Assembly: GCF_006517235.1 (NCBI RefSeq)
Contig: NZ_CP041188.1
Coordinates: 3,038,001-3,102,000, forward strand
Direction of reading: 5' to 3'
DNA length: 64,000 nt
Source of the DNA: Pseudarthrobacter sp. NIBRBAC000502772
GTDB lineage: Bacteria > Actinomycetota > Actinomycetes > Actinomycetales > Micrococcaceae
Shown here piece after piece: positions 20,262 through 44,596 of the stretch (position 1 is the first letter of the stretch; every line of letters starts with the position of its first letter). Below the pieces are notes generated by a model. That model worked only from the letters and a program-made list of their open reading frames with translations. It did no database searches and was not told the DNA's origin. A program made the translations under genes and the position numbers.

Positions 20262-20277
20262 AGGACTACTGACCCTA
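20262..20277. promoter_or_regulatory. Candidate DosR-like box upstream of SHOCT/multicopper oxidase operon
   Basis: AGGACTACTGACCCTA lies 65 bp upstream of the SHOCT gene. It matches 10 of 14 positions of the DosR core GGGACTWWAGTCCC. It is supported mainly by recurrence of the pattern at eight other intergenic sites on the island. Confidence 0.35.
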
Positions 20278-20341
20278 CTGGTCCGCAGACACAGGAACCA
20301 GAATCGAACTAAGACAGGTCGAGAGGCGAAAGGTACCAGCC

Positions 20342-20575
20342 ATGATGTGGGGATACGGACAAGGCATGGGCTGGACGTGGCTCTGGGGCCTCCTCCTGCT
20401 GATAGGGATCGCCGTGCTGGTAATACTCGCGGTTCGCCTGTTTGGCGGCGGTGTGGGCCGCGGACACGACAACTCCGCGATGGCAAAGAGCCGGGCACGG
20501 CAGATCCTCGACGAACGCTTCGCGGCCGGTGAGCTGACGGCGGATCAGCTCCGAGTCCTCGGGGATGGCCCGTAG
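20342..20575 (+). CDS. Small SHOCT-domain membrane protein
   Basis: In 77 residues there is one transmembrane helix (about 12-32), a short Gly-rich linker and a C-terminal SHOCT motif (ARQILDERFAAGELTADQL). SHOCT is a short oligomerisation or targeting motif of unknown exact role. An AAAGG site lies ahead of the ATG. Its TAG stop overlaps the likely GTG start of the multicopper oxidase (TAGTG), so the pair should be coupled. Confidence 0.85.
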   Translation: MMWGYGQGMGWTWLWGLLLLIGIAVLVILAVRLFGGGVGRGHDNSAMAKSRARQILDERFAAGELTADQLRVLGDGP

Positions 20576-22038
20576 TGCGGCCCATGAGTCGCAGGAACGC
20601 GCTCTTGCTCGCTGGTCTTGGCGTCGCAGGAACAGCGGCGGGAGGGACGGGCCTGGTGTGGACGCTGACGGCCCGGCCTTCCCCCATCGCCGGAGGCGAA
20701 CTGACGGAACCGCCTGAGCATCGGAGCATCGGCGGCCGGCTCCGGGTTCGGCTCGAAGCCGCCCCTGGACAGATTCGGCTCGGCGGCCAGTTGGCGGCGG
20801 CCCTCGGCTATAACGGGACGGTTCCTGGCCCAACCCTGCGTCTCAGGGCTGGGGACGTCGTCAACCTTGAACTCGTCAACAATTTGGATCAGGTCACGAA
20901 CCTGCATGTGCACGGCCTCCATGTGTCCCCCCAGGGCAATGGGGACAATGTCTTTGTCTCCGTCGATCCTGGCTCGTCCTTCGAGTACGAGTACCGGATT
21001 CCAGCGGACCATCCCCCTGGTGTGTATTGGTACCACCCCCACCATCACGGCCGGGTCGGTGATCAGATTTTTTCCGGTCTCTTCGGGGCGATTGTCATCG
21101 AGGATCCGGAGCCGATGGCGGCAACGCGGGAGCGGGTGTTGGTAGTTTCTGATACCGCGTTGGATGGGTTCGGGAACATCCTGCCGGCCAGGGACATGGA
21201 CCGGATGATGGGCCGCGAAGGGGAACTCCTCCTGGTGAACGGCCAAAGCAATCCGCAGTTCAGCGCCCACCCTGGGGAACGGGAAAGATGGCGCATCATC
21301 AACGCGTGCGTCTCCCGTTACTTACGGCTGCGGCTCGAAGGGCAGCAAATGCAGCTCCTCGGCATGGACCTCGGCCGCTTCCGGAACCCGGAAAAAATGG
21401 ACGAAATCGTTCTGACTCCGGGGAACCGGGCAGACCTCCTTGTTACCACAGCAACCGGGGATTCTGTCCTGCGCTCTGTTTACCAGGATCGCGGAAGCAT
21501 GCCAGCGATGATGGGTCCGCAGTTCGGACCGGCGGACCCGGGAAACGGGCCGGACGGCGCCGCACTGGCCACTCTCCACGTCTCAGGCGAACCTGCGCCA
21601 TCCTTGGCGGACATGACTGCCCCTGCGGAAATGGGAGATCTGCGCTCATCCGCCGTCGCTGCACGCCGGCAGCTGGTACTGGCCACTGGCATGGGCATGG
21701 GTGGGGCAGGCATGATGCGCTTCACCGTCAACGGCAGGAAATTCAACGACGCGAGGACGGACACCACGGTTGCTGCCGGGACTGTAGAGGAATGGACCCT
21801 GACCAACCGCAGTCCAATGGACCACCCCTTCCACCTGCACGTATGGCCCATGCAGATCATCGAGGAAAACGGCCAGGCCGTGGATTCCCTTCTCTGGCAG
21901 GACGTAGTGAACGTACCGGCGAATGGGCGGGTGACGGTACGGATTGCGTTCGAGGACTTCCGCGGGCGCTCGGTCTACCACTGCCACATTCTGGACCACG
22001 AGGACCTTGGAATGATGGGCGTCATCGAAGTACGGTGA
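20575..22038 (+). CDS. Multicopper oxidase (laccase/copper-oxidase type)
   Basis: This is a 487-residue, three-cupredoxin-type enzyme. Copper-binding blocks are LHVHGLHVSP, WYHPHHHG, HPFHLHVWP and YHCHILDHEDLGMMG; the last contains the HCH trinuclear/T1 ligands and an axial Met. An N-terminal SRRNALLLAGLG segment resembles a Tat signal, which fits export of a folded copper enzyme. A GTG at 20575 overlaps the SHOCT stop; ATG at 20584 is the alternative. Likely reactions are oxidation of Cu(I), metals or phenolics with reduction of O2; the substrate is not inferable. Confidence 0.92.
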   Translation: MRPMSRRNALLLAGLGVAGTAAGGTGLVWTLTARPSPIAGGELTEPPEHRSIGGRLRVRLEAAPGQIRLGGQLAAALGYNGTVPGPTLRLRAGDVVNLELVNNLDQVTNLHVHGLHVSPQGNGDNVFVSVDPGSSFEYEYRIPADHPPGVYWYHPHHHGRVGDQIFSGLFGAIVIEDPEPMAATRERVLVVSDTALDGFGNILPARDMDRMMGREGELLLVNGQSNPQFSAHPGERERWRIINACVSRYLRLRLEGQQMQLLGMDLGRFRNPEKMDEIVLTPGNRADLLVTTATGDSVLRSVYQDRGSMPAMMGPQFGPADPGNGPDGAALATLHVSGEPAPSLADMTAPAEMGDLRSSAVAARRQLVLATGMGMGGAGMMRFTVNGRKFNDARTDTTVAAGTVEEWTLTNRSPMDHPFHLHVWPMQIIEENGQAVDSLLWQDVVNVPANGRVTVRIAFEDFRGRSVYHCHILDHEDLGMMGVIEVR

Positions 22039-22180: not shown

Positions 22181-22195
22181 GGGACCAAGGGCTCT
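22181..22195. promoter_or_regulatory. Candidate DosR-like box upstream of PLDc_N/ABC operon
   Basis: GGGACCAAGGGCTCT lies 105 bp before the PLDc_N start. It matches 10 of 14 core positions, with a weak right half-site. It is the least convincing of the nine sites. Confidence 0.25.
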
Positions 22196-22300
22196 GTCGC
22201 CAGAATGCCCCGCGGATGACGCTTTGAAGAGGATGGGATATCGGTGAAGGGGAAGAACCCATGATTGCCAACACTGCAACGAGACCGGGACCGGCGGGAA

Positions 22301-22627
22301 ATGATCAATGATTTGTCGGCTCTCCCCACCGGTGTGCTGGTGGCCGTGGGGATCCTGGTATCCGCCGCGCTGGTGCTGGACGCAATTGCCCTGATCGACC
22401 TTTACCGGCGGCCTGCCGAACTGGTTGCCTTCGCGAATAAGTGGATTTGGCTAGTGCTGATGCTCGTTTTGAACGTACTTGGCCCGGTTCTGTACCTCCT
22501 GATTGGCCGCAAGGCCGCCTCCCCGCCGGAGGGCCCGGCCACGACAGGCAGCGCTTCGAAGCAAACCGGTGCCGTTGACGTGGCCGGCAAGCTCTACGGT
22601 CCCCCGGACCAACCCTTCCGACGTTGA
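22301..22627 (+). CDS. PLDc_N-domain two-helix membrane protein
   Basis: The 108-residue protein has two hydrophobic segments (about 8-28 and 40-60) with the PLDc_N pattern ALIDLYRRPAELV and NKWIWLVLMLVLNVLGPVLY. The hydrophilic tail is not conserved. The stop overlaps the TTG start of the ABC ATPase by 4 bp (TTGA). PLDc_N proteins are commonly fused to or placed next to ABC exporters and probably act as membrane accessory subunits. The ATG at 22301 is chosen as the first one ahead of the hydrophobic segment. Confidence 0.82.
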   Translation: MINDLSALPTGVLVAVGILVSAALVLDAIALIDLYRRPAELVAFANKWIWLVLMLVLNVLGPVLYLLIGRKAASPPEGPATTGSASKQTGAVDVAGKLYGPPDQPFRR

Positions 22628-23553
22628 ACGCGGCCATCGAAGCCGTCGGGCTCACCAAGTCCTTCGGACAAAAGCGGGCCCTCGACGCGGTCAGTCTAAG
22701 CGTCGAGGAGGGCTCCATTTTTGGCTTCCTGGGCCCGAACGGTGCCGGAAAGACCACCATGCTTCGTCTCCTGAGCGGCCTGGCCAGGCCTACTTCTGGA
22801 TCGCTCCTGGTGCTGGGACACGCCATGGACTCAGCCGACAACGCAGTCCGGGCCAGGGTCGGCTTCCTCCCGGACGTTCCCGCGTTCTACAACTGGATGA
22901 CCGCCGGTGAAACCATGCGGTTTGCGGGAAGGCTGCATGGAATGAACGGCAGGCAGCTGAACGATCGGGTGGACTTGCTGCTGGACATGGCGGGACTCGG
23001 ACAGGTGGGCACGCACGTAGGGGAATACTCGCGCGGAATGCGGCAGCGCCTGGGCGTCGCCCAGGCCCTCATCAACGCTCCGGAGCTGCTGTTGCTGGAC
23101 GAACCGACGGGCGCACTTGATCCCATAGGACGCAAAGACGTCCTGGAACTGATCGCATCGTTGCGTGGCCGCACCACAGTTTTTTTCTCCACCCACATCC
23201 TCGGCGATGCCGAGCGAATCTGCGACTCGATCGCCATCCTCGATCGGGGCCAGGTGGTGGCACAGGCGCCAATCGAGGAGATGAAGGAACGCTACTCGAA
23301 GCAGAAGATCGTCGTCGAAGTCACCCGCGGCGCCGACATACTCGCTGCGGCTATCTCCCACTGCGGCTGGGCGATATCGGTCACGCACGGAGCGCACGAC
23401 GTCCTGGAAGTCGCCGTCAGTGACCTTGGAGCCGCCCAGCACGCGATCCCTGCCATGATCAGCCGCCAAGGGACAGGCCTGGCACGTCTGGAGGTCAAGG
23501 AGATGGATCTCGAAGAGGTCTTCGTGCAACTCGTCGGGGGTGGCCGGACTTGA
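22624..23553 (+). CDS. ABC transporter ATP-binding protein (NosF/CcmA-like)
   Basis: In 309 residues there are Walker A GPNGAGKTT, a signature region EYSRGMRQRLGVAQ, Walker B LLLLDEPTGALDP and an H-loop FSTHIL. The roughly 90-residue C-terminal extension is typical of exporters of the NosF/DRA class. The TTG start overlaps the PLDc_N stop and the stop overlaps the TTG start of the permease, so the three are translated as a unit. The transported substrate is unknown; the neighbouring copper oxidase makes a copper or redox role possible, but this is inference. Confidence 0.92.
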   Translation: MNAAIEAVGLTKSFGQKRALDAVSLSVEEGSIFGFLGPNGAGKTTMLRLLSGLARPTSGSLLVLGHAMDSADNAVRARVGFLPDVPAFYNWMTAGETMRFAGRLHGMNGRQLNDRVDLLLDMAGLGQVGTHVGEYSRGMRQRLGVAQALINAPELLLLDEPTGALDPIGRKDVLELIASLRGRTTVFFSTHILGDAERICDSIAILDRGQVVAQAPIEEMKERYSKQKIVVEVTRGADILAAAISHCGWAISVTHGAHDVLEVAVSDLGAAQHAIPAMISRQGTGLARLEVKEMDLEEVFVQLVGGGRT

Positions 23554-24314
23554 ACGGATACCTCGTGTTCGCCCGCAAGGAGGCTCTTGAAATAGTCCGC
23601 ACCTGGCGCATCTGGGTGTTGCCGTCGATCCTGCTCTTCTTCGCACTCACCGGGCCGCCGCTCGCGCGTTTCACTCCCGAGCTCATCAACGCCCTGGCCG
23701 GCGAGCAGCTTGGCCAGTTCAGGATACCGCCACCCACCTACCTCGACGCCTACGGGCAATGGATCAAGAACCTGTCGCAAATCGTGCTGTTCGCACTCAT
23801 CATCATCTACGGCGGACTCATCTCATCCGAAATCCGGAGCGGCACCGCTGCCTTCGTCCTCACCAAACCTCTGTCCCGGGCGGCGTTTGTCATCATCAAG
23901 GCCATCGTTCATACCGCGTTCCTGGCGTTCACCCTGACGGCAGGGACGCTCATCACCTGGGGAGTGACACTTGCCGTATTCAGGGATGCGCCCGCTTCCG
24001 CACTGTGGAAGTCCGCGCTTCTCTGGCTGGTGCTCGGCGTCTTTTTCATCATGCTCATGACGGCGTTGTCCGTGATGATCCCCGCCCCCGCGGGGGCAGC
24101 CGGTGCCGGGCTCGGTGCCTATGCGTTGTTATCGGCCGTAGCCATCTGGGAACCCCTCCGCACTTACTCCCCGGCGGGCATCACCGGCCAGGCAACGTCC
24201 CTGGCCGCCGGCACCGAAACTGCCTCACCACTGTGGACGGTGACGACGTCGGTCCTGCTTTCCATAGCTTTGGTCTTGCTGGCGGCGGCACTCTTCCGCC
24301 GCAAGGAACTGTAA
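23550..24314 (+). CDS. ABC-2 type transporter permease (NosY-like)
   Basis: The 254-residue protein has six predicted membrane segments (about 22-40, 75-97, 115-137, 150-175, 178-198 and 225-245). The conserved SSEIRSGTAAFVLTKPLSR motif is typical of ABC-2/NosY permeases. It starts with TTG in a TTGA overlap. With the ATPase it forms an exporter. It is the last gene of the plus-strand set and converges on the small genes at 24372. Confidence 0.9.
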   Translation: MNGYLVFARKEALEIVRTWRIWVLPSILLFFALTGPPLARFTPELINALAGEQLGQFRIPPPTYLDAYGQWIKNLSQIVLFALIIIYGGLISSEIRSGTAAFVLTKPLSRAAFVIIKAIVHTAFLAFTLTAGTLITWGVTLAVFRDAPASALWKSALLWLVLGVFFIMLMTALSVMIPAPAGAAGAGLGAYALLSAVAIWEPLRTYSPAGITGQATSLAAGTETASPLWTVTTSVLLSIALVLLAAALFRRKEL

Positions 24315-24731: not shown

Positions 24732-24752
24732 CCGACACCTTCCGATAGGGCA

Positions 24753-25104: not shown

Positions 25105-25120
25105 CGGGACGTTCGCCCCT
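25105..25120. promoter_or_regulatory. Candidate DosR-like box in divergent promoter of DUF3040/ctpF operon
   Basis: CGGGACGTTCGCCCCT matches 11 of 14 positions of the DosR core (GGGAC, TT, G and CCC all present). It lies 78 bp upstream of the DUF3040 start, which leads into the P-type ATPase gene, and 64 bp from the divergent membrane-protein gene. Confidence 0.5.
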
Positions 25121-25198
25121 ACCCGCGCATGGCGGCCGGCATGACACTGGATAGTGACATCAGAGGCACACGTCCAATGTACGTTCAGGAGGGTACAG

Positions 25199-25528
25199 AT
25201 GTCGCTTTCCCGGCACGAGCGTGGCCTGCTCGACGAAATTGGGCGCCAGTTGATCGAGGACGACCCGAGGCTCGCCGCGCGTTTGGGTCAACCGCCGCGG
25301 CCGGCGTCCAATGGCTGGAGCCTGGCAGGCGGGGTGCTGCTTACTTTGACCGGCTTTGTCGTCCTGATGTCGGGAGCTGTGCTGATGTCCACGGCACTCG
25401 GGGCCGCTGGCTTCATCACCATGGCAGCCGGTGGAACACTGGCATCGCGCTGGATCGGCGTTTCCCGATTCCGGTGGGTAACGCGGCCGCCCAATCCTGA
25501 GGTGCGACACAACACCCCGGTCGAATAG
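25199..25528 (+). CDS. DUF3040 family membrane protein
   Basis: The 109-residue protein starts MSLSRHERGLLDEIGRQLIEDDPRLAARL, which is the DUF3040 hallmark, followed by two hydrophobic segments (about 40-60 and 62-80). The ATG at 25199 has GGAGG 7 bases upstream. The family is common in Actinobacteria and has no known function. Its stop is immediately followed by the ATPase start, so the two are co-translated. Confidence 0.85.
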   Translation: MSLSRHERGLLDEIGRQLIEDDPRLAARLGQPPRPASNGWSLAGGVLLTLTGFVVLMSGAVLMSTALGAAGFITMAAGGTLASRWIGVSRFRWVTRPPNPEVRHNTPVE

Positions 25529-28246
25529 ATGCCGGAGATACCCCATCATGGCCTTCCGGCCCACGAAGTCGTACTCCTCCTGGAGGCCCATCCCTTCGAG
25601 GGCCTGGACCCTGACACAGTGTCCCGAAGGCGTCAGCTCTACGGACCGAACGTACTCCCGCGCTCCAAAAGGGGCGAACTGCTCCGCAAAACAGCGCGGC
25701 AGTTCAACAACCCTCTGATCTACGTGCTGCTCGCGGCCGCAGGGGTGACAACCTACCTCGGTGAACAACTCGACACCTTTGTCATCCTTGCCGTGGTGCT
25801 GGTCAATACAGTGGTCGGGCTCGTGCAGGAGGTCCGCGCCGAGGGGGCACTGGATGCGCTGCGTCACCTAGTCCAGACCCACGCAGCCGTGATAAGGGGC
25901 GGCGTGCGGCTGGAAGTTCCCTCCGAAAAGTTGGTCCCGGGAGACCTCGTCCTGCTCGAAGCTGGTGACAAGGTACCCGCGGACATTCGCCTCGTCCGCC
26001 TTTGGGGCCTCAAAGTTGACGAATCGACGTTGACCGGGGAATCCGAAGCAGTGTCCAAGGATGAAGTGGTCCTGCCCGCCGCCACACCAGTCGCGGATCG
26101 CCGAAACATGGTTTACGGAGGAACCCTCGTGACGGCCGGAAGTGGTGCCGGAATCGTGGTGGCCACCGGTGGGGAAACGGAGCTCGGCGAGATCCATCGG
26201 CTCATGGGCACCGTCCAGCCCATGGCGACTCCCCTCACCCAAAAGCTTTCACGGTTCAGTATGACGCTCACTGTTGGCATCCTGGCCCTTGCCGCCTTTG
26301 CCTTCATCGTTGGGGTGGCACGCGGCCAGCAGCCGGCGGAAATGTTCACTGCCGCCGTAGCCTTGGCGGTTGGAGCCATACCCGAGGGCCTTCCAGCCGC
26401 CGTGACGGTCACGCTCGCCATTGGGGTTCGGCGCATGGCAAGACGGCGCGCGGTGGTCCGTCGTCTTCCGGTAGTCGAAACCTTGGGCAGCACAACGGTC
26501 ATCTGCTCGGACAAGACTGGAACCTTCACAGAAAACCAGATGACGGTGCGGGCCCTCTGGACTCCCTCGGCGCAGTATGAGGTATCCGGCTCCGGCTACG
26601 GCCCGGAGGGAACAATCCGCAGGCGTGCGCCCGGCCGGGAGGATGTTCAAGCTGGCAGGTCTGAGGCCCTCGATGACGCAGCGCTCCGCTGGTGCCTGCT
26701 GGCGGGCGGGGCCTGCAACGACGCCACGGTCCACTTTGAAGGGGACGTCTGGGGCGCCCGGGGTGACCCGACCGAGGCCGCGATGCTGGTGGTGGCGGGA
26801 AAAGGCGGAGTGGATATCAAGGAATTCCTGGAACGAACACCGCGGCTGGACTCCATTCCTTTCACTTCGGAGCTGCAATATATGGCCACGCTGCACGCGG
26901 CAGAACCATGGGCGCCGGGTTCCATTGTGCTGGTCAAGGGCGGTGTCGAACGGCTGCTTGAGCTTTGCTACGGGCAGATGGACCGCGGCGGTGAAACGGT
27001 ACCGGTTGAGCCCAAAACCGTGCTGCGGGCCGCCCACGCGCTAGCTGCCACTGGGCTGAGGGTACTAGCCACGGCATTGGTGCGGTTACCACCGGAGTCC
27101 GGAGTACTCGCCGGGGCACCCATCGAACGGAACCTGGTTTTGACGGGCCTGCAGGCCATGCTCGATCCCCCGCGAAAAGCCGCCGCGGCAGCCGTTGAAG
27201 CCTGCCACGAGGCTGGCATAGCGGTGAAAATGATCACCGGGGACCATGTGGGTACGGCGGTTTCCATCGCCGCGTCGGTGGGCCTGGACGGCAATCCTGA
27301 AGACGGCACCGCCCTGCTCGGCATCGACCTGGACAACATCCCCGGCGTCGAGCTCACTGCTGCCGTGGAGAGGGCAACCGTTTTCGCTCGGGTCTCCCCG
27401 GAGCAGAAGCTCCGGCTTATAAATGCGCTGCAGGCTGGCGGACATGTCGTTGCAATGACAGGCGACGGGGTCAACGATGCGCCCGCACTTCGCCAGGCGA
27501 ACGTGGGGATCGCCATGGGCCGTTCGGGAACCGAAGTGGCCAAAGAGGCCTCGGACATTGTGCTGACCGATGACAACTTCGCCACCATCGAAGCGGCCGT
27601 CGAAGAGGGCCGCAACGTCTTCGACAACCTGACCAAATTCATCGTCTGGACATTGCCGACGAACATGGGGGAAGGCCTGGTCATCCTGGTGGCGATCCTC
27701 ATTGGCGGGACACTCCCCATCCTGCCGACCCAGATCCTGTGGATCAATATGACAACCGCAGTAGCCCTCGGCCTGATGCTTGCCTTCGAGCCGGGGGAAC
27801 CGGGACTGATGTCCCGCCCGCCCCGGAACCCGGCCCTCCCATTGCTGACCTGGGCGCTGACGCTGCGGGTACTGCTGGTCTCGGCCCTCCTGGTCGGAGG
27901 CACATGGTGGATCTTCGAATGGGAACTCGCAGGCGGTGCCTCCCTCCCTGAAGCGAGGACGTCGGCAGTCAACCTCTTCGTCACCGTGGAGTTGTTCTAC
28001 CTATTCAGCTGCCGTTCACTGACGCGGCCGGCTTGGCGGATGGGCCCGTTCAGCAACCCCTGGGTAGTGGTTGGGGTCCTCATCCAGGCTGTCGGCCAAA
28101 TCGCCATCACATACTCCCCCGTAATGAACGGGCTCTTCCACACGGCCCCCATAGGCCCGGAGGCATGGCTGCGGATCTTCGGCCTCGCACTGCTCGCGTC
28201 AATGGTGGTCGCGGTGGACAAACGATTCCGGCGTCACATCCTTTAG
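25529..28246 (+). CDS. ctpF: P2-type cation-transporting ATPase, CtpF-like
   Basis: The 905-residue ATPase has the actuator TGES, phosphorylation site DKTGTFT, nucleotide domain KGGVERL, hinge TGDGVNDAP and M4 motif PEGLP. The N-terminal cation_ATPase_N region and ten membrane segments fit type P2. In M6 the motif is ILWINMTTAVALG; the Asp that PacL/SERCA pumps have after NxxT is absent. From memory the length and the C-terminal third (LFYLFSCRSLTR) closely resemble M. tuberculosis CtpF, a DosR-regulon member reported to export Ca2+. The ion is therefore uncertain. It forms an operon with DUF3040 and the following membrane gene. Confidence 0.9.
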   Translation: MPEIPHHGLPAHEVVLLLEAHPFEGLDPDTVSRRRQLYGPNVLPRSKRGELLRKTARQFNNPLIYVLLAAAGVTTYLGEQLDTFVILAVVLVNTVVGLVQEVRAEGALDALRHLVQTHAAVIRGGVRLEVPSEKLVPGDLVLLEAGDKVPADIRLVRLWGLKVDESTLTGESEAVSKDEVVLPAATPVADRRNMVYGGTLVTAGSGAGIVVATGGETELGEIHRLMGTVQPMATPLTQKLSRFSMTLTVGILALAAFAFIVGVARGQQPAEMFTAAVALAVGAIPEGLPAAVTVTLAIGVRRMARRRAVVRRLPVVETLGSTTVICSDKTGTFTENQMTVRALWTPSAQYEVSGSGYGPEGTIRRRAPGREDVQAGRSEALDDAALRWCLLAGGACNDATVHFEGDVWGARGDPTEAAMLVVAGKGGVDIKEFLERTPRLDSIPFTSELQYMATLHAAEPWAPGSIVLVKGGVERLLELCYGQMDRGGETVPVEPKTVLRAAHALAATGLRVLATALVRLPPESGVLAGAPIERNLVLTGLQAMLDPPRKAAAAAVEACHEAGIAVKMITGDHVGTAVSIAASVGLDGNPEDGTALLGIDLDNIPGVELTAAVERATVFARVSPEQKLRLINALQAGGHVVAMTGDGVNDAPALRQANVGIAMGRSGTEVAKEASDIVLTDDNFATIEAAVEEGRNVFDNLTKFIVWTLPTNMGEGLVILVAILIGGTLPILPTQILWINMTTAVALGLMLAFEPGEPGLMSRPPRNPALPLLTWALTLRVLLVSALLVGGTWWIFEWELAGGASLPEARTSAVNLFVTVELFYLFSCRSLTRPAWRMGPFSNPWVVVGVLIQAVGQIAITYSPVMNGLFHTAPIGPEAWLRIFGLALLASMVVAVDKRFRRHIL

Positions 28247-28703: not shown

Positions 28704-28719
28704 AGAGACGTTCGGCCCT
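28704..28719. promoter_or_regulatory. Candidate DosR-like box upstream of GyrI-like gene
   Basis: AGAGACGTTCGGCCCT matches 10 of 14 core positions and shares 13 of 16 bases with the site at 25105. It lies 34 bp ahead of the GyrI-like start, in the short gap after the membrane-protein gene. Confidence 0.4.
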
Positions 28720-28753: not shown

Positions 28754-29224
28754 ATGAATGCGAGAAACCCAGAACTCAGAATCGTCCACACTGTTGAACA
28801 GCCCACCGCGGTGGTCCACGAAAGAATCCCGATGGCTGACCTGACGGAATTCTTCGGCCGGGCATTCGGCACCGTGATGGCGGCGGCCCAGGCGCAGGGC
28901 GTCCAGTTGGCCGGCCCGCCTTTTGCCCTCTACCGGGGAATGCCTACTGAAACCGTCGACGTCGAAGCCGGTTTTCCCGTCAACGCCGGCTTCAGCGGGA
29001 CCGAAGGCGTGGCAAACGGCAGCCTGCCTGAAGCCGAGGCCTTTGAAGCCATCCACCTCGGACCATACGACACCTTGGGTACGACGTACGGGGCCATCCA
29101 GGAGCGCATGCGGGCGGAAGGACTGACTCCCTCCGACACAATGTGGGAGTACTACCTCAGTGACCCCGAAACGGAGCCGGACCCAGCCAAGTGGCAGACG
29201 CGCGTGGTGTGGCCCGTTGCCTGA
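28754..29224 (+). CDS. GyrI-like small-molecule-binding domain protein
   Basis: The 156-residue protein has the AraC-effector-binding/GyrI-like fold pattern: an N-terminal VEQPTAVVHERIPM strand-helix, ALYRGMP, and the C-terminal GPYDTLGTTYGAIQERM and DTMWEYYLSDPE motif. The invariant glutamate of the ligand pocket is present in the last block. Stand-alone members bind hydrophobic or cationic ligands and may sense or sequester them. There is no DNA-binding domain. Confidence 0.88.
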   Translation: MNARNPELRIVHTVEQPTAVVHERIPMADLTEFFGRAFGTVMAAAQAQGVQLAGPPFALYRGMPTETVDVEAGFPVNAGFSGTEGVANGSLPEAEAFEAIHLGPYDTLGTTYGAIQERMRAEGLTPSDTMWEYYLSDPETEPDPAKWQTRVVWPVA

Positions 29225-31121: not shown

Positions 31122-32566
<1,445 letters not shown>

Positions 32567-32570
<4 letters not shown>

Positions 32571-34729: not shown

Positions 34730-34745
34730 CGTGCCTTTTGGCCCT
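34730..34745. promoter_or_regulatory. Candidate DosR-like box upstream of DUF5129/TPM gene
   Basis: CGTGCCTTTTGGCCCT matches 10 of 14 core positions and lies 35 bp upstream of the preferred start at 34780. If the alternative start at 34738 were used, the site would overlap the coding region. Confidence 0.3.
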
Positions 34746-34779
34746 GTCAAAGTCCACGTGCCCAGTGGATCCTTTCTCT

Positions 34780-36273: not shown

Positions 36274-36288
36274 GTGACTTTCGGCCCT
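36273..36288. promoter_or_regulatory. Candidate DosR-like box upstream of universal stress protein pair
   Basis: GGTGACTTTCGGCCCT matches 11 of 14 core positions and lies 64 bp upstream of the USP gene at 36353. That gene leads a unit with the tandem USP and the flavin-type oxidoreductase. Confidence 0.5.
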
Positions 36289-36352: not shown

Positions 36353-36826
36353 ATGGAGGAGTCAGCGTCAGATAGTGCCATGTTCGTGGTGGGGGTGGAC
36401 GGGTCGGAGGCCTCGGTGGAAGCGCTCCGGCAGGCCCAGCGGCTGGCTGTCCCGCTTGGGGCAAAGGTGCTGGCCACCGCCTACTGGGAGGATCCGCAGG
36501 TTTACGCCGGATAAGTGGCGATGGGCATTGACCGCTTCGATGAACGCGTCATGATCATCCTCAAGGAAGCCCTGGAACAGGCCTTCGGGCAGGTGATTCC
36601 GCCGAACGTCATTCCACGCGTCGTCCGGGGGCATCCCAGGGACTCACTGATAGACGCCAGCCGCCACGCGGACATGATCGTTGTTGGCAGGCGCGGCCAC
36701 GGAGGATTCGGAGGCCTGCTGCTGGGGTCCGTCAGCTCAGCCTGTGTGGCCCATGCGCACTGCCCAGTCCTAGTTGTTCATAGCCCGACACAGACAAAAA
36801 GGGAGACCAGCCGTGAGAACGTCTAA
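36353..36826 (+). pseudogene. Universal stress protein interrupted by an in-frame stop
   Basis: One continuous frame encodes a 157-residue single-domain USP: an N-terminal FVVGVDGSEASVEAL strand-helix, and a C-terminal ATP-binding pattern VVGRRGHGGFGGLLLGSVS. A TAA at 36512-36514 splits it after residue 53, at a place where homologues have Tyr (TAC or TAT would restore it). No indel is needed to explain the break. A restart at ATG 36521 would give a protein lacking the first ATP-binding strands. It overlaps the next USP start. Confidence 0.9.
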
Positions 36827-37679
36827 ACCGATCGCCGTCGCCACCAACGACTCTCCGCAAAGCCAGGCAGCCGTGAAATGGGCTGCACGCCGGGCTTCCC
36901 GCGCTGGCCTGCCGCTGATCATTCTGCACGTTGTTGACGACCGCTGGGTGGCCGAACCCATCCCGTGGACCGCGATCCTGGAGGAGAAGGGCTACGAACT
37001 GCTGGAAGCCGCTGCCGGGCGCGTGAGGGGTACCGTCCCGATTGAGATCACCACGAAACTTCTGGAAGGCAGCGTCGCGGGCTCCCTGGGTAAGTACTCC
37101 ACCAAGGCGTCCATGCTTGTGGTGGGCTCCGGAGACACCCATTTGGGTGGTTCGCTCACCGACCGGGCCCTGCAGGTCGCCGCCACGGCGAAGTGTCCTG
37201 TTGCCGTCATCGGCATGCATGACCTCGAAGGCCGCAGCGGAGTCCTGGTGGGCGTGGACGGTTCGGAAGAGTCCACGCAGGCCGTCGCCTTCGCAGCTGC
37301 CGAGGCGGACAGGGAGGGCCAGGAGCTTACAGTGCTGTTCGCCTTCAGCGGCCCCAACCGCTGGGTCAGGGCAGGCCTGCCGACCAGCAGCCTTGCCGCC
37401 CTGATTGAAGAAGAGGAGCAGATCGTTCTGTCGGAGGCAGTGGCCGGTCTCCGCGAGGATTACCCGGACCTCGTGGTGCGCAAGATTCTGGAAAGCGAAA
37501 AAGAACCGGCGGAGGCGCTGGTGAAGGCAGCTGCTGATGCTCAGATGCTCGTGGTGGGAAGCCGCGGCCGGGGCGGCTTCAAACGGCTGCTGCTCGGTTC
37601 CACGGCCCACGCGGTTCTGACGCACCTGCCCTGCCCAACGGTGATCACCCCTATCCAACGCAGGAAGCACAAGAAGTAG
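36813..37679 (+). CDS. Tandem-domain universal stress protein
   Basis: The 288-residue protein has two USP domains (about 1-135 and 142-285). The second has the ATP-binding signature VVGSRGRGGFKRLLLGSTAH and an N-terminal GVDGSEESTQA. The first domain has VVGSGDTHLGGSLTDRAL in the equivalent place, lacking the full G-2x-G-9x-G pattern. The GTG start follows a GGGAG site. Two-domain USPs of this type are DosR-regulated in mycobacteria and bind ATP during growth arrest. It is followed 10 bp later by the flavin-type oxidoreductase gene. Confidence 0.93.
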   Translation: MRTSKPIAVATNDSPQSQAAVKWAARRASRAGLPLIILHVVDDRWVAEPIPWTAILEEKGYELLEAAAGRVRGTVPIEITTKLLEGSVAGSLGKYSTKASMLVVGSGDTHLGGSLTDRALQVAATAKCPVAVIGMHDLEGRSGVLVGVDGSEESTQAVAFAAAEADREGQELTVLFAFSGPNRWVRAGLPTSSLAALIEEEEQIVLSEAVAGLREDYPDLVVRKILESEKEPAEALVKAAADAQMLVVGSRGRGGFKRLLLGSTAHAVLTHLPCPTVITPIQRRKHKK

Positions 37680-37689
37680 GAGCCCCAGC

Positions 37690-38166
37690 ATGCAAGGCAA
37701 CGGCTCAGGACCGGAAACGGAAGTCCTCGACATTCATGACTGCTGGAAGTATCTCCGATCGGCTTCGGTCTGCCGGATCGCTATCACTGCGGGCGGGGGG
37801 CCTGAGGTTTTCCCGGTGAATTATGTCCCCGACTACGGGACCGTGGTGTTCCGCACCGGTCCGCGTACCAAACTGGATGCGGTTCGCGGCGGCGAACCGG
37901 TGGCCTTGGAAGCCGACGGCCTGAACACCTACGACACCATTGCATGGAGTGTCATCGTCAAGGGGACTGCCGACGTTGTGGACACCCAGGAAGCCTTCCA
38001 GGAGGCAGCAGACGCCGGGCTCTCGCCCTGGGAGACGGGCAGCAAGGACCACCTGGTGCGTGTAACGCCTACGGAGGTCAGTGGGAGGCGTTTTGTCATC
38101 AATCCCCCGTCCCGCTGGTGGCCTCCGCTGGACTCCGCCGGGCATGAACCTCCGGGCGGCGGGTGA
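37690..38166 (+). CDS. Pyridoxamine 5'-phosphate oxidase-like flavin/F420-binding protein
   Basis: The 158-residue split-barrel protein has the patterns SVCRIAITAGGGPEVFPVNY and VVFRTGPRTKLDAV, typical of the pyridoxamine-oxidase-related family found beside USPs in Actinobacteria. These proteins bind FMN or F420; actual pyridoxamine oxidase activity is unlikely at this length. It is co-transcribed with the tandem USP, so it belongs to the same stress unit. Confidence 0.88.
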   Translation: MQGNGSGPETEVLDIHDCWKYLRSASVCRIAITAGGGPEVFPVNYVPDYGTVVFRTGPRTKLDAVRGGEPVALEADGLNTYDTIAWSVIVKGTADVVDTQEAFQEAADAGLSPWETGSKDHLVRVTPTEVSGRRFVINPPSRWWPPLDSAGHEPPGGG

Positions 38167-38183: not shown

Positions 38184-39217
38184 TCACCTCGTGCGGGCGG
38201 CGCTGACCGGTGCGCCGCCCACCGCAGCCGTGTTGGGTCGGCGTCGATCGTGCAGGGCGCGCAGCGCGTTCAGGATTGTGGCCAGGTCGACCAGTTCCTG
38301 GAGGAGGGCACCGGCCACAGCGGGAATGTAGCCGAATACCGCTGCAATCATCAGGCCGATGCTCAGCAGGATGCCGGTCCAGATGCTCGCCAGCGCAATC
38401 CGGACCGTGCGCTGTCCGATGTCGACGGCCAGCGCAGCTTTGGATAAGTCGTCGAGCATAATGACGACGTCGGCTGACTCGCTCGCTGCCGTTGACCCCT
38501 TGGCGCCCATGGCGATTCCGACGTCGGCGGCGGCCAGGACCGGGGCGTCGTTCACACCGTCACCCACCATCATGACCGGGCGTTTCCGCAACCCTGCGAC
38601 GATGGAGACTTTGTCACCTTGCCTGAATCCGGGAGATCCCGGCCTGTGCAGCAATTTCTTGGGCGGTGGCCCGCGAGTCGCCGGTGACAAGCAGTGTTTC
38701 CTGGACGCAGTGTTTCCTGGACGCCCAGCCGGCGCAGTGCGGCCAGTGTGTCAACCGCATTTTCCCGGAGTGGGTCGCTCATGATCAGGGCTCCCGCAAA
38801 GCGTCCGTCAACGCCAACATAGACGGCCAGTTGTCCGCCGGTCACCTCGGCCTCCTCAAACCCCGAGGCAACGGAACGCACAAAGTCAGGCTTGCCGACC
38901 ACCACCGTTTGGTTGCCGCAGGTGGCCGTGACCCCCTCGGTGGCGTGCTCAAACGCATTGCTTCCCGACAGCAGCCGGAGCCCATGGCGCCGTGCAGCCT
39001 CAACGACAGAGGAGGCAAGGACATGGGAGGAGTACTGCTCCGCCGAGGCGGCGAGCTGCAGCAGCCGGTCCTCGGTCATCAGCCCGGACGCTGCAGGGGA
39101 AACCCTGATCCCGTGCAAGGTGGGCCCGCCGTGGGTGAGCGTGCCTGTCTTGTCGAACACGGCCGTCCGCACCCGGGCAAGCTGTTCCAGTGTTCCGCCA
39201 TTTTTGATGAGAATTCC
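38184..39217 (-). pseudogene. Heavy-metal P1B-type ATPase, 5'-truncated and frameshifted
   Basis: The C-terminal half remains: phosphorylation site FDKTGTLTHGG, HP-like nucleotide region, then VGDGVNDAPVLAAADVGIAMG and the last two membrane helices. A 16-bp tandem duplication at 38691-38722 shifts the frame before the hinge. A second lesion (a deletion near 38625) is needed to rejoin the GDGVNDAP block. At about 39217 the gene is cut and joined head to head with a response-regulator gene; the metal-binding and first six membrane segments are gone. Metal specificity cannot be judged because the CPx motif is missing. Confidence 0.88.
38691..38722. repeat. 16-bp tandem duplication inside the heavy-metal ATPase
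   Basis: GCAGTGTTTCCTGGAC occurs twice in direct succession (38691-38706 and 38707-38722). Removing one copy restores a continuous ATPase frame reading ETLLVTGDSRATA, so the duplication is the cause of that frameshift. Confidence 0.95.
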
Positions 39218-40044
39218 TGCCCTCCGCCCCCCACTTGCCATCCTCGATGAGAACCTCCGGACGGCACCGGCACTGCCGTGTGCCGGGCCCTCCGGGCTGC
39301 CGACCCGTCCATCCGGTGCCTCATCCTCTCGGACACACCGCAGGAGAGCACCCTGATCGACGCAATCCTCTCCGATGCATGGGGATGCCTGTCCAAGCAG
39401 GACGACATTACCGAACAGCTGCGCTTGATCCGGCGGGTGCTGAACGGTTGCACAGCCTTCAGCGAGAAGTTCCAGCCCCTCCTCAAGCAGGGCACGCTTT
39501 CCCTGCCGGAACCACCGCCGAGTACCGAATTGTCCATTCTGACCGGTCAGGAAATGAACGTTGTCATCGGCCTCGGCAGAGGCCTGGTGAACCGCCAAAT
39601 AGCCCAGAGCCTGGGCCTGAAGGAAAAACAGTAAAAAACCTTGTCTCCAGCGCACTTGGCAAGCTCGGATTGGCCCGCAGGACCCAGGCCGCAGTTCTCG
39701 TCACCACCGTCACGACCCCGGAGCAACGGGTCACGACGGCACCCTACGGGCACAACCGGACACCGGAAGCGCTCTCCAGGGTCACCGCGAAACTGCTCGA
39801 CTGCACCAAAGAAAGCACCACACCGGTTGATGACGCCGCACGTGCCAAGGCCGCCAGCGCCTCGTCCTCCGCCCTCACCAGAACCCGGGCCACGCGGAAG
39901 CCCCACCTAAAACCAGCAGTAAACACCCGGGGTACGGCCGCCACAGTGGGCAGCTTACCTATCACCAGCGAGGGGCAGTATCCGCTGATTTCTCCTGGCC
40001 AGCCGTACCACGGGACAGCCAGCCGGAGGGTCTTTGTCCCCTAG
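39218..40044 (+). pseudogene. DosR/DevR-type (NarL family) response regulator, truncated and frameshifted
   Basis: The receiver domain begins only at about the phospho-acceptor strand (LAILDENL), so its first third is missing. One C is lacking near 39247 (NLPDGTGTAVCRA expected). The receiver continues through LILSD and CLSKQDD. A LuxR-type helix-turn-helix follows; within it one A is missing from the A-run near 39623, which creates a stop in place of KTVKNLVSSALGKLG. The recognition-helix pattern K-x-x-K-N-x-V-S and the RRTQAAV ending match DosR/DevR. Homology fades after about 39715, where a divergent tail runs to 40044. It is joined head to head with the heavy-metal ATPase remnant. Confidence 0.85.
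40027..40042. promoter_or_regulatory. Candidate DosR-like box upstream of SPW-repeat gene
   Basis: AGGGTCTTTGTCCCCT is a visible dyad (AGGG with CCCT) 110 bp upstream of the SPW gene. It fits the island pattern RGGGNCNTTNGNCCCY except at one position. Confidence 0.35.
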
Positions 40045-40152: not shown

Positions 40153-40509
40153 GTGAAAAAATGGAATCGATGGCAGGACTGGGTAACCGTCGCTGCCGGA
40201 ATCTTCGCCGCCGTCTCCGTCCTGTGGACGGGGCAGGAAGGCATGTCCACGACACTAATGGTCATCTTCGGCGCACTCCTGGTCGCCAGCGGACTCGTAA
40301 ACCTCGCCATGCCCGGCACACCGGTCATGGAATGGGTGCAGGCAGCCCTCGCCGCCGGGCTCATCCTCTCCCCATGGATAGGGTCCTACGCTGCTACTAC
40401 CGGAGCCGCCTGGATCTCCTGGATAACCGGAGCAGTGGCGCTCATCGTCACCGCAGCCGCCATCAAGCCCAGCACCGAAGGCCATCACCGCATCCGCATC
40501 TCGCACTAG
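40153..40509 (+). CDS. SPW-repeat membrane protein
   Basis: The 118-residue protein has four hydrophobic segments in two SPW-type repeats (WQDWVTVAAGIFAAVSVLW and EWVQAALAAGLILSPWIGSY). The GTG at 40153 has GGAGAG 8 bases upstream; a GTG at 40144 is also in frame. SPW proteins are small membrane proteins of unknown function, common in Actinobacteria and Mycobacteria. Confidence 0.85.
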   Translation: MKKWNRWQDWVTVAAGIFAAVSVLWTGQEGMSTTLMVIFGALLVASGLVNLAMPGTPVMEWVQAALAAGLILSPWIGSYAATTGAAWISWITGAVALIVTAAAIKPSTEGHHRIRISH

Positions 40510-40914: not shown

Positions 40915-41661
40915 ATGGAACGAGTCATCGACAAAGTAGCGCTGGTCAGCGGGGGTGCACGCGGAATTGGAGCCGCGGTCGCATCGCGGCTCCATGGCGA
41001 AGGGGCGAAGGTCGTCCTAGGCGACATCCTGGACGAAGAGGGAAAAGAAACCGCGGAGCGCATCGGCTCTGGCGCGCTCTATGTTCACCTCGACGTGACC
41101 AGCCCGCAGGACTGGGAGAGTGCGGTGAGCGCCGCCGTCGAGACGTTCGGAGGTCTGAACATCCTGGTGAACAATGCCGGCATTGTGAACTTCGCCTCAA
41201 TCGAGGACTACACCTTGGAGCAATGGAATACCGTGATTGCCGTGAACCTGACCGGCACCTTCAACGGGATCAAGGCTGCAATCCCTGCCCTGAAGCAGTC
41301 CAAAGGCGGGTCGATAGTCAATATTTCCTCGATTGCCGGCATCCGCGGCTATGAGCAGATCCCCGGATACACGGCCTCGAAGTTCGGAGTGCGTGGACTT
41401 ACCAAGAGCGCCGCGCTGGACCTGGGACACTATGGCATCAGGGTCAACTCCGTCCATCCCGGAGTCATCTCCACCCCGATGACGGCCGACACACCGATGG
41501 ACATGAGCCACGTGACACTCGGCCGCATAGGCCATCCCGGAGAAGTGGCGGACCTCGTCCTATACCTGTCTTCCAACGAAGCTTCGTTCGTTACCGGAGC
41601 CGAGTTCGTCATCGACGGTGGTGACACCGCGGGGACGGTAACCCCGCACGAGGAGACGTAG
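40915..41661 (+). CDS. Short-chain dehydrogenase/reductase (classical SDR)
   Basis: The 248-residue protein has the cofactor motif GGARGIG (TGxxxGIG type, here SGGARGIG), NNAGIVNF, the catalytic Ser in VNISSIAG, and YTASK. The Asp after the second strand (GDILDEEG) suggests NAD(H) rather than NADP(H) preference. The ending INSTEAD of a long tail is typical of hydroxysteroid or alcohol SDRs; the substrate is unknown. It is the intact paralogue of the frameshifted SDR at 31122-31878. GAAGGAG precedes the ATG, and a single-domain USP follows 64 bp later. Confidence 0.93.
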   Translation: MERVIDKVALVSGGARGIGAAVASRLHGEGAKVVLGDILDEEGKETAERIGSGALYVHLDVTSPQDWESAVSAAVETFGGLNILVNNAGIVNFASIEDYTLEQWNTVIAVNLTGTFNGIKAAIPALKQSKGGSIVNISSIAGIRGYEQIPGYTASKFGVRGLTKSAALDLGHYGIRVNSVHPGVISTPMTADTPMDMSHVTLGRIGHPGEVADLVLYLSSNEASFVTGAEFVIDGGDTAGTVTPHEET

Positions 41662-41725: not shown

Positions 41726-42181
41726 ATGACCAGCACCGCTTCGTTCTTGATTGTGGTTGGTTTTGACGGTTCCAAACATTCTCAGACCGCACTGAAATGG
41801 GCCGTGGACGAGGCCCGCCAGCGCGACGGCCAGCTCCGCCTGATCACGGCCTGGAACAAGCCGCCGATGGCGTGGTATCCGGCCGTGCTGGAAACGGCGG
41901 CAGGTGAAATCGCCGCCGAAGAGTCCCCGGAGCAAGTCGCACGGACGCTCCAGGCTGAGGCACTGAAGTCCGCTGCAGATGGAGGTGTGGCTGCCACAGG
42001 GCAGCTCGTTAACGGTGGTTCACCTGCTTCGGCCATACTCGACGCTGCCAAGGACGCGGATCTTATCGTCGTCGGCTCCAGGGGTCATGGGGGATTTCCG
42101 GGGTTGCACCTGGGCTCGGTCTCCACCCAGGTCGTCAACCACGCACAATGTCCTGTCCTGGTGGTCCGCTCCAAGGCGTGA
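41726..42181 (+). CDS. Universal stress protein, single domain
   Basis: The 151-residue UspA-type protein has GFDGSKHSQTALKWA at the N-terminus and the ATP-binding signature VVGSRGHGGFPGLHLGSVS near residue 113. A GAAAGGAAAG site precedes the ATG. A fragment nearly identical at DNA level to its last third occurs at the right island edge (57941-58092). Confidence 0.94.
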   Translation: MTSTASFLIVVGFDGSKHSQTALKWAVDEARQRDGQLRLITAWNKPPMAWYPAVLETAAGEIAAEESPEQVARTLQAEALKSAADGGVAATGQLVNGGSPASAILDAAKDADLIVVGSRGHGGFPGLHLGSVSTQVVNHAQCPVLVVRSKA

Positions 42182-42610: not shown

Positions 42611-42913
42611 GTGGCAACTGATTACGACGAGCTCCGCAGCGAAGTCAAGGAATCGCAGAACGACTCCCTCGAGGCCCTCACGTCAGCCAGCGCACCTGAT
42701 GCCAACAGCGTGGTGCGTGAGCTGGACGCAGCGGTTGACATGGACAATGTCGGGATCCCCGGCGGAGAGTTTGTCGCCGATGAATTTGATCGTCCAGGTC
42801 GTTCCCCAACGTAACGACGAGTTCACCTGCTACTCCTGCTTCCTGGCCGCCACCGCTCCCAAATGGCGCGGGAGAAAGACGGTCACGCCTACTGCATCGA
42901 GTGCGAGGGCTGA
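42611..42913 (+). pseudogene. DUF4193 zinc-ribbon-like protein, two frameshifts
   Basis: It starts with GTG (MATDYDELR), the standard DUF4193 opening. An extra T near 42786 shifts the frame so that translation ends at 42814. The next frame resumes IVQVVPQRNDEFTCYSC. About 62 bp later a missing base shifts it again, and the third frame gives the HRSQMAREKDGHAYCIECEG ending with stop at 42911. Both CxxC pairs are thus preserved but split over frames. Intact DUF4193 is a conserved actinobacterial protein of about 100 residues; a functional copy is presumably elsewhere. Confidence 0.85.
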
Positions 42914-43355
42914 ATTCAAGAACCGCAAACCGGCAACTCCGTGGGAGAAGCTGGTGGGGACCGGTTCTGCCCCGGCAGGAGCCTCACACGTCAGGTCGCC
43001 GGTGAGCGGGAGGGCGCAACGCTTCGGGGTAGGTGCGTACTATGGGCGTGAGTCCGGCAGCTTCCATCGCTTCGGTGGCGGATAGAGGTACCAGGCGATG
43101 GTTGCCGCCCGCGAACTTTGCATGGTCCTGCGGTTGTGCACCCGGCAAGAGAGCGCCCGCCGGCCGGAAGGGCTTTGTACTCTATTGCGCGCAGCCGCGG
43201 CGGATGATGTTCCTCCATAGTGCTCCTTCGGTCCGGCTTTTCCGGGGAGCCAGGGATACGGCTTTCCCGACCGGTGGGCACATGCTGACAGCCTGCGCGG
43301 GGACGTGCCCAGGAAGTCCGCATGCTTGGGTGACCCTCACCGTCCTACGGAGGCG
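42914..43355. other. Intergenic stretch without recognisable gene
   Basis: These 442 bp lie between the DUF4193 relic and the 3' end of a convergent USP gene. Open frames exist on both strands but none shows a ribosome site or a family pattern. It may be decayed coding sequence. Confidence 0.45.
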
Positions 43356-44228
43356 TCAGTCCTCGTCGTGCTTGATGTCGCGCAGCCGGGTGACGATGGT
43401 CGGGCAGGGCGCGTGCAGCAGGACGGCGTGGGCCGTGGAGCCCAGTACCAGCCGGGAAAATGCTCCGCGTCCGCGGCTGCCGATCACCAGCAGCCGGGCC
43501 TCCCGTGCGGCGTCGACCAGGGCCTGGGCAGGTTCGGTATCGGTTTCGAGCCGCTGATGGATCACCAGATCCGGGTACCTGTCCCGTAGACCCGCCACCG
43601 ATTCGGCGAGGACCACCCTGTCCTCCTCGACGATGGTCTCGGCCAGCCCGCTGCCCGGCAGTTCGTTCTCGACCCACCTGGCCGGGCCATGGACGGCCAG
43701 GACCGCCGTCAGCTCATCGCCTGCACTGTCAGCCTCGGCGGCGGCGAAGGACACGGCTTGCAGTGACTCCTCGGATCCGTCCACCCCGACCAGCACCCCG
43801 TGGCGGCCCGTGTCCGGCGTTGGCGGGACGACGGCGACCGGGCTGTCCGAGGCGGAGACAACCTGCAAGGCGCGGTCGGTCAGTGGCCCGCCGTCCAGCC
43901 AGTGCCGGTCATGCGCACCGACCACCAGCATGGAGGCTTCCTTGGATGCTTCCCTGAGGGCCGCCCCCGCGCTCCCGTGCCGCAGCTGGATCTCCACTTC
44001 AACGCCGGGGGCCTGGGCACGGGCGCTGGCCTGCACCTTCTGCAGCAGTTTCATCCCCGCATCCCGGACGAGGTCCTGGTACTGGAACTCTGGGGACACC
44101 CAGCGGTCATCCACGGCATAAACGGCGATGACCGGCAGCCTGGACCGCGACGCGCGCCGGAGCGCCCACGCCAGGGCGGTCTCGCTTCGCTCCGACCCGT
44201 TGATACCGACGACGATTGGCTTGTTCAT
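43356..44228 (-). CDS. Tandem-domain universal stress protein
   Basis: The 290-residue protein has two USP domains. The first opens VVGINGSERSETALAWALRRA and has VVGAHDRHWLDGGPLTDRAL in place of a full ATP loop. The second opens GVDGSEESLQAV and has the complete VIGSRGRGAFSRLVLGSTAH signature. It is a paralogue of the gene at 36813-37679 with the same domain asymmetry. The promoter should lie in 44229-44400, where a strong DosR-like dyad is present. Confidence 0.93.
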   Translation of the reverse strand: MNKPIVVGINGSERSETALAWALRRASRSRLPVIAVYAVDDRWVSPEFQYQDLVRDAGMKLLQKVQASARAQAPGVEVEIQLRHGSAGAALREASKEASMLVVGAHDRHWLDGGPLTDRALQVVSASDSPVAVVPPTPDTGRHGVLVGVDGSEESLQAVSFAAAEADSAGDELTAVLAVHGPARWVENELPGSGLAETIVEEDRVVLAESVAGLRDRYPDLVIHQRLETDTEPAQALVDAAREARLLVIGSRGRGAFSRLVLGSTAHAVLLHAPCPTIVTRLRDIKHDED

Positions 44229-44596
44229 TCTGGATCCCGATCTTCTCCCGTGTGTGCGGTGCCTTCCGTGTGCACCACCGTGCAGCAGCGTTACCCACGG
44301 TCTGCTGACGCTTCAGTGTGCGCTGGCAGTAAAGCCGCCGTCAGGGCCTTAAGCCCCTCATTCCCGGGTGGTGGCCGGTACCCGGCTGCCCCTTGAAAAC
44401 CGGGGGTCAGTCTCAAACCCGGACCCAAGAGACGCCGTCTATCTCTCTTGCCTGCCTCCCAAGGAAACAGCGGCTCGCCGGACTAGCCGCCGCACGGGCC
44501 CGCGGCCGGAACGGCGGCCGACGGCTGCTACTGGTCCCTGGCAGATACTCGCAACGCCATCGTTCACGACACAGAATCGCCCGTCATGCTCAGCGC
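44229..44596. other. Promoter-side intergenic region of the USP gene
   Basis: This 368-bp stretch holds the DosR-like dyad at 44343-44358. Apart from that I see no gene, RNA or repeat. A small minus-strand ORF begins beyond it, so the region upstream of the USP gene is not shared with a divergent gene. Confidence 0.5.
44343..44358. promoter_or_regulatory. Candidate DosR-like box upstream of USP gene
   Basis: AGGGCCTTAAGCCCCT is the most symmetric site on the island and matches 12 of 14 positions of GGGACTWWAGTCCC (differences at positions 4 and 11 are complementary to each other in the dyad sense). It lies 115 bp upstream of the USP start at 44228. Confidence 0.55.

Follow-up and report, generated by a model that had tools for sequence, protein, structure and literature searches.

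Which regulator acts on the inverted repeats that precede a series of stress genes in Pseudarthrobacter sp. NIBRBAC000502772? The question was raised by a stretch of 64,000 nucleotides (bases 3038001–3102000 of one 4.80-Mb contig), which is referred to here as the window and numbered from its first letter. The initial annotation of the window had placed nine dyads close upstream of gene starts and had proposed a DosR-type dormancy or hypoxia regulon on a Micrococcaceae island. All nine dyads were located where they had been placed. With a probability of roughly 0.87, they serve as operators for a response regulator of the DosR/OsdR type and make up a satellite regulon controlled in trans. The sequence comparisons described below support the proposed components, sites and wiring.

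Each box was a 14-mer, and the scores given here were obtained with a weight matrix built from other genomes. Box AGGACTACTGACCC (20262–20275, score 11.4) preceded a 77-aa open reading frame (ORF) and multicopper oxidase 1; box GGGACCAAGGGCTC (22181–22194, score 13.2) preceded a PLDc_N protein and NosFY-like ABC genes; box GGGACGTTCGCCCC (25106–25119, score 13.9) preceded a DUF3040 protein and a CtpF-like ATPase and possibly serves a minus-strand ORF at 24753 as well. Box GAGACGTTCGGCCC (28705–28718, score 14.8) was assigned to a GyrI-like protein, and box GGGGCTTTGGACCC (31975–31988, score 16.7) to a 160-aa ORF and a DUF5671 protein, with the minus-strand short-chain dehydrogenase (SDR1) and multicopper oxidase 2 (MCO2) genes as a possible alternative target. 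A weaker second box followed at 32057–32070 (score 9.8), and the paralogous promoter in cluster 2 of the same genome had the same box (score 9.3). Box GTGCCTTTTGGCCC (34731–34744, score 13.7) preceded a DUF5129 protein, box GTGACTTTCGGCCC (36274–36287, score 14.6) a broken universal stress protein (USP) gene, a tandem USP and a pyridoxamine-phosphate-oxidase-like gene, and box GGGTCTTTGTCCCC (40028–40041, score 15.0) an SPW-domain protein. The last box, GGGGCTTAAGGCCC in its minus-strand reading (44344–44357, score 17.0), preceded a minus-strand tandem USP. Gene starts, several of them uncertain, lay about 35–115 bases beyond the end of the 14-mer. The register of the box is, by sequence, that of the DosR/OsdR box.

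The matrix was seeded with the published DosR/OsdR core and not with the window. It was trained on exact GGGNC-N4-GNCCC matches in the intergenic DNA of ±10 kb dosR neighbourhoods from 20 other genomes, which were fetched from 49 others with a DosR match; "intergenic" was defined throughout by the gene calls of a simple codon-usage caller. These neighbourhoods contained 36 exact core matches in 78.8 kb of intergenic DNA, versus 7.3 on average and at most 13 in 30 shuffles. The palindromic matrix expanded from the core matches comprised 85 sites and was then scanned over the window. In the intergenic DNA of the island (6.0 kb), the nine best sites were the nine dyads of the initial annotation (scores 11.4–17.0). 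The island thus held nine intergenic sites of at least 11, and the intergenic control DNA of the same genome (51.0 kb) held none of even 9 or more. Two hundred dinucleotide shuffles of the island intergenic DNA gave a mean of 0.23 sites (maximum 2), and 200 matrices with permuted columns likewise found no more than 2 sites each. When all DNA was counted, coding sequence included, there were nine sites of at least 11 in the island and 4 in 380 kb of control DNA. The exact core itself occurred three times in the 6.0 kb of island intergenic DNA and once in the 51 kb of control. Beyond the range of the initial annotation, the window sites of at least 11 were 4861, within a gene, and two intergenic sites inside the insertion at 57616–57629 (score 14.5) and 57862–57875 (score 12.5). 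These last two lay beside a USP fragment (57622–58107) that abuts the right direct repeat described below; at positions 57922–58096, the fragment shared 85% identity with the last part of the window USP at 41726–42181.

The boxes were not confined to the island, and at least two more clusters of the same genome carried them. Dyad enumeration in the clusters outside the window gave GGT-N6-ACC (20 vs 3.3) and GAC-N6-CCC (22 vs 6.5) as the top patterns; both are sub-patterns of the box, and GGT-N6-ACC did not occur in the window island. Among the genome-wide matches to the literal pattern at no more than one mismatch, it was the clustering that stood out: seven distinct places lay within about 120 bp upstream of USP matches, five of them outside the window (the gene at place 3775138 is broken, and its start was estimated). 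Two other approaches were discarded: palindromic expectation-maximization (EM) on the clusters outside the window settled on the start-codon signal, and dyad enumeration on short loci of the relatives was overwhelmed by masked N runs and shared ancestry.

An intact DosR homologue, whose absence from the genome would have told against the initial annotation, was found at genome positions 3784027–3784710, 0.7 Mb from the island and in the paralogous cluster. Its closest named relative was the dosR of Pseudarthrobacter sp. HLT1-5 (93%). Pfam identified receiver and GerE domains (PF00072 and PF00196), and the best solved relative was Mycobacterium tuberculosis DevR (3c3w, E = 3.2e-62), followed by VraR (E = 3.1e-31). 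Equivalents of Asp54, the phospho-acceptor of DosR/DevR, and of Lys179, Lys182 and Asn183 were present in the DevR alignment. The three residues Lys179, Lys182 and Asn183 are named as DNA contacts in PMC4082495. The adjoining gene (3784714–3786501), convergent to the intact dosR, is predicted from its sequence to encode a haem-binding GAF kinase of the DosS/DosT type. Its GAF-A domain matched DosT/DevS (E of about 1e-50) and kept the equivalents of the haem His149 and the ligand-discriminating Tyr171; the position of DosS Glu87 was occupied by Gly, as in DosT, and HisKA_3 and HATPase domains were also present. Boxes preceded both the intact dosR and the kinase gene.

The island also carried a dosR relic (39210–39723, plus strand), which was recovered by tblastn as pieces in three frames with an internal stop. 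Among solved structures, DevR matched the main piece best (E = 1.1e-7). The island dosR is thus decayed, and control is therefore expected to come in trans from the distant intact copy. The proposal of a DosR-type regulon in a Micrococcaceae island accordingly held at its core: the boxes, the relic, the intact DosR homologue with its kinase, the CtpF-like ATPase and the insertion were all found. It needs correction in that the regulon extends beyond the island and the working regulator lies outside it.

The association of the box with the regulator was then examined across relatives. Of the 28 genomes kept out of the training, 25 had a box no more than about 350 bp upstream of dosR, versus 3 of 313 control genes of the present genome; the remaining genomes (17 training genomes and the present one) gave 16 of 18. 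In a wider survey of the regions upstream of dosR (77 of 80 loci used; three were dropped for short or off-register flanks), boxes were present in 15 of 16 Micrococcaceae loci and 35 of 61 other loci. Among 61 congeners, the strict palindrome AGGGNCNWWNGNCCCT averaged 2.56 occurrences per genome where DosR was present (45 genomes; 2.55 without the present genome) and 0.56 where it was absent (16 genomes; p = 1.1e-5); its reversed control showed no such difference (p = 0.54). The literature-derived pattern RGGGACYTTCGGCCCY, which at first seemed uninformative by eye, was linked with DosR by a statistical test: at no more than one mismatch in 149 genomes of the family, counts were 1.94 in the 50 with DosR versus 0.71 in the 99 without it (p = 2e-8), and those of its reversed control were 2.40 versus 1.90 (p = 0.05), all uncorrected for genome size.

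These comparisons bear on the possibility that a different NarL/LuxR-type regulator of the genome uses the boxes. NarL-family regulators can share GC-rich dyads, and the genome contained 19 GerE-domain matches. Such a regulator is nevertheless very unlikely to be the one involved, given that the boxes were more than four times rarer in the congeners lacking DosR and stood before dosR in most of the test genomes. The register of the box, moreover, is the one reported for OsdR and DevR (PMC5069765).

The gene neighbourhoods pointed to the DosR homologue as well. Of the 61 genomes of the genus, 13 encoded a CtpF-like ATPase (at least 72% identity). DosR was present in every one of these, and in 12 of 12 other congeners with ctpF (60 searched) the ATPase gene lay 2.1–3.0 kb from dosR. 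In three close congeners, much of the block of DUF5671, GyrI-like, DUF5129, USP, tandem USP and pyridoxamine-phosphate-oxidase-like genes lay on one side of dosR, with a P-type ATPase gene and a gene of 533–546 codons between the block and dosR, and boxes stood before the operons. A variant box close to GGGACYAATGGCTCTGC was observed downstream of ctpF in most of one set of congener loci (L087–L097), and it resembled window site 22181.

A candidate second promoter element stood at a preferred distance from the box. Offsets were counted from the end of the 14-mer, and each site was oriented by its downstream gene. Around dosR in 20 relatives, 24 of 51 sites had the hexamer xAxxxT at +23, and in 16 congener clusters 36 of 46 sites had it. 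At offset 24 it occurred 12 and 7 times, and offsets outside 22–24 averaged 1.3 and 0.85, with maxima of 5 and 3. In the window, seven of the nine sites had it, including 20262 (CAGAAT), 22181 and 28705 (both GACGCT), 34731 (GATCCT) and 44344 (CACACT); at 25106, GACACT was present in the plus orientation and no such hexamer in the minus orientation chosen by the gene caller. The sites of the same genome outside the window, oriented by the caller, had the hexamer at +23 in five of eight cases. If the hexamer is a -10 element, the box would extend from -49 to -36 and be centred at -42.5, which is a usual position for a class II activator. In an alignment of five USP promoters, including that of the 36274 box, the box block and a CAGGCT block were conserved and the spacer varied. 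In the wider survey, 9 of 20 Micrococcaceae sites had the hexamer at +23; beyond this family, +23 was not the top offset (the top was offset 35, with 10 of 41). Among loci L137–L192 (Micromonosporaceae among others), several Micromonospora and Actinoplanes dosR genes had GGGACCTTCGGCCC-like boxes about 50 bp upstream, and in these promoters a sequence resembling TAGAAA stood near +23/24. The promoter rule may extend more widely.

The state of these promoters also bears on whether the boxes are remains of the dead island dosR, unbound by the distant DosR, so that the island genes are silent or otherwise controlled. The local dosR is broken, as are one USP gene and one P-type ATPase gene of the island, and the long piece of the relic was at most about 38% identical to any best-scoring dosR gene tried. 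Against this, the nine promoters still gave the top scores with a matrix from other genomes and seven of them kept the -10-like element; this element and the box were the conserved blocks of the USP promoter, in which the spacer varied, and the intact cluster bears the same type of box. The boxes are therefore unlikely to be such remains, and operators of the intact DosR homologue are the preferred interpretation.

Several results weigh against that interpretation. The literal consensus RGGGNCNTTNGNCCCY of the initial annotation was not enriched: at no more than two mismatches it was found 37 times in the window versus 40.2 expected, and genome-wide, at no more than one mismatch, 80 matches were listed (48 + 32) versus 98 + 97 for the reversed control pattern. 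The bare core at one mismatch did not separate the island (2.49/kb) from the rest of the window (2.93/kb). A matrix built from 25 distinct published Streptomyces coelicolor sites was also non-discriminating (10 island sites of at least 7 versus 6.4 expected); the central bases differ. Among the promoters, 31975 has no xAxxxT at +23 and 40028 has TTGACT there, while 25106 was oriented by hand towards CtpF, and the orientations of the caller alone give six of eight window sites. One congener without DosR (G202, 90% complete) carried four boxes. Finally, the promoters of the relatives share ancestry, so that their counts are not independent and the p-values given above are too small.

The chance density of the literal consensus in the window, together with the partial paralogy of the island to cluster 2, would suit an origin of the dyads as a chance product of GC-rich sequence or as a shared repeat copied with the genes. 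The probability of such an origin is close to nil: it is contradicted by the control-DNA, shuffle, column-permutation and dosR-upstream controls, the sequences of the sites are not alike, and only 36274, together with the weak 32057, falls inside a listed block common with cluster 2, which leaves eight of the nine outside all such blocks.

For the DosR homologue, the following mechanism is proposed. The signal would probably be loss of oxygen, or binding of NO or CO, at the haem GAF kinase. The kinase encoded beside dosR would phosphorylate the intact DosR homologue, and phospho-DosR would bind the GGGNCNWWNGNCCC box, centred at about -42.5 and lying over the -35 position. Bound DosR would then activate transcription from the -10-like xAxxxT element and turn on genes for USPs, for ion pumps and copper oxidases, and for small membrane proteins, both on the island and on the chromosome. 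The window genes would be a satellite part of this regulon, sitting on an inserted 39.5-kb island and run by the intact dosR copy 0.7 Mb away. Haem binding, DNA binding, the signal and the direction of control are expected by analogy with the mycobacterial and Streptomyces systems; a response to hypoxia or NO, "dormancy" and a physiological role in low-oxygen survival are likewise presumed.

The island is bounded by two direct repeats on the plus strand (17932–18627 and 58098–58793), which consist of the 3' part of comEC and the 5' part of holA and are 96.6% identical over 696 bp. They enclose 39.5 kb at the comEC-holA junction; a 3' fragment of comEC lies beside holA on the left and the long comEC frame on the right. 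In eight of ten congeners, the long comEC match continued straight into holA. In the other two (G204 and G162), holA was adjoined only by the last 45–50 residues of comEC, and the long comEC match lay 3.3 and 1.8 kb further on; in G162, a direct repeat of 362 bp (84.5%) again duplicated the end of comEC. The junction looks like a recurrent insertion site, and possibly a hotspot, because G204 and G162 also carry small inserts there. Neither insert held a site of at least 10 or matched any of the island genes used as queries. The simplest account of the island would be that circular DNA carrying a comEC-holA junction integrated through a single crossover. No integrase or conjugation genes were found among the island proteins given to Pfam, which covered part of the ORFs, and tRNA and Rfam scans of the window found nothing. 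The LysR gene beside the right part of the island had no match in eight congeners and was unusable as a site marker.

The island was paralogous in part to cluster 2 (3.77–3.79 Mb), with 2.3 kb at 97.0% identity and 3.0 kb at 81%. The 97.0% block aligned window 32055–34343 with genome 3772729–3775017, and the upstream DNA differed. The block starts 80 bases past the start of the strong box 31975, and cluster 2 had no site of at least 10 there, only one of 9.3. The two gene copies therefore differ in the strong box. Such nearly identical genes with a strong box upstream of one copy only offer a natural promoter comparison.

The left end of the island carried an MBL/rhodanese protein (18931–20196); the congener stretches compared lacked the other window genes around it, bar one short match. 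On the plus strand followed multicopper oxidase 1 (20656–22038, with the start from the gene caller; Cu-oxidase domains, ORF 20575–22038), the PLDc_N membrane protein (22301–22627; PF13396, ORF 22265–22627), the pair of ABC ATPase and ABC-2 permease (22624–24314; PF00005 and PF12679), the DUF3040 protein (25154–25528; PF11239, E = 1e-19), the CtpF-like cation-transporting P-type ATPase (25529–28246; PF00122, PF00689 and PF00690) and the GyrI-like small-molecule-binding protein (28754–29224; PF06445). Multicopper oxidase 2 (29299–31086) and a short-chain dehydrogenase (31122–31814; PF13561) were encoded on the minus strand. The DUF5671 membrane protein (32507–34333), the DUF5129 protein (34738–36273; PF17173, E = 8e-149), the broken USP gene (36386–36781; a USP profile match with one in-frame TAA inside), a tandem USP (36774–37679; PF00582 in two stretches) and the pyridoxamine-phosphate-oxidase-like protein (37690–38166; PF12900) again lay on the plus strand. 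The broken P-type ATPase (38184–39217, minus strand) resembled an intact copy of the same genome up to 39217. The SPW-domain membrane protein (40153–40509; PF03779), a second short-chain dehydrogenase (40915–41661) and a USP (41726–42181; PF00582) were on the plus strand, and the last tandem USP (43356–44228; PF00582 in two stretches) was on the minus strand. The first USP of both paralogous operons of the genome seems broken, by the internal stop in 36386–36781 and with only the second half in frame at 10139–10678 of locus L001; the copies in three close congeners were 144–153 aa long.

The island also carried an aerobic CO dehydrogenase operon (46769–56328; coxL 48294–50687) with FAD, 2Fe-2S and molybdenum subunits and XdhC-type, AAA and CoxG proteins. 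The large subunit had AYACSFR, the motif of form I CO dehydrogenase, and its best solved match was CoxL (8uem). No box of at least 8 was found by the matrix at the operon start. It may tentatively be imagined, although we rather doubt it, that the 39.5-kb element is a "persistence island" that recombined in at comEC-holA with ready-wired DosR promoters and a form I CO dehydrogenase operon and has been run in trans by the haem-sensing DosR of the host after losing its own regulator, and that DosR regulons would then spread and grow in soil Actinomycetes as regulator-less satellites. If so, the sensing of low oxygen would be tied to stress proteins and to the scavenging of CO.

Dormancy control by DosR is known mainly from mycobacteria, with an additional study in Streptomyces (PMC5069765). 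Among the best-ranked matches of a literature search, there was no study of a DosR/OsdR-type regulon in Micrococcaceae or Arthrobacter. The kind of system is already known; the regulator-less satellite island, the preferred spacing of box and hexamer, and the CO dehydrogenase operon alongside were not seen described. The findings provide a concrete DosR regulon, open to testing, in the Arthrobacter group of soil bacteria, and a piece of a regulon without its former local regulator is a natural experiment. The promoter rule (box, 23 bases, xAxxxT) could help target prediction elsewhere. No nitrate reductase was found among the proteins annotated here, no dedicated search having been made.

In M. 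tuberculosis, the DosR regulon includes USPs and a CtpF-type ATPase among its targets. The present system is like DosR/DevR-DosS/DosT in that the regulator and the haem GAF kinase are close by sequence and the box (GGGACTWWAGTCCC in M. tuberculosis) has the same register. It differs in that the regulator is adjoined by one kinase found, whose residue at the position of Glu87 is Gly, as in DosT, and in that the host belongs to a free-living soil lineage. In S. coelicolor, the sites of the OsdR/OsdK regulon are reported to cluster at the regulator gene and to precede genes for USPs, pyridoxamine oxidases and dehydrogenases (PMC5069765). The present system shares with it the box register (AGGGCCGATCGGCCCT; SCO0167 site AGGGACCTTCGGCCCC), the adjoining of regulator and kinase, and the clustering of sites at the regulator gene and at these same types of gene. 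However, the centre of the box is mostly A/T here (TT, AA or TA) and GATC in the S. coelicolor sites given there. Unlike OsdR/OsdK, the gene content here includes DUF5671, DUF5129, GyrI-like and SPW proteins, and the regulon lies partly on an inserted island with a dead copy of the regulator.

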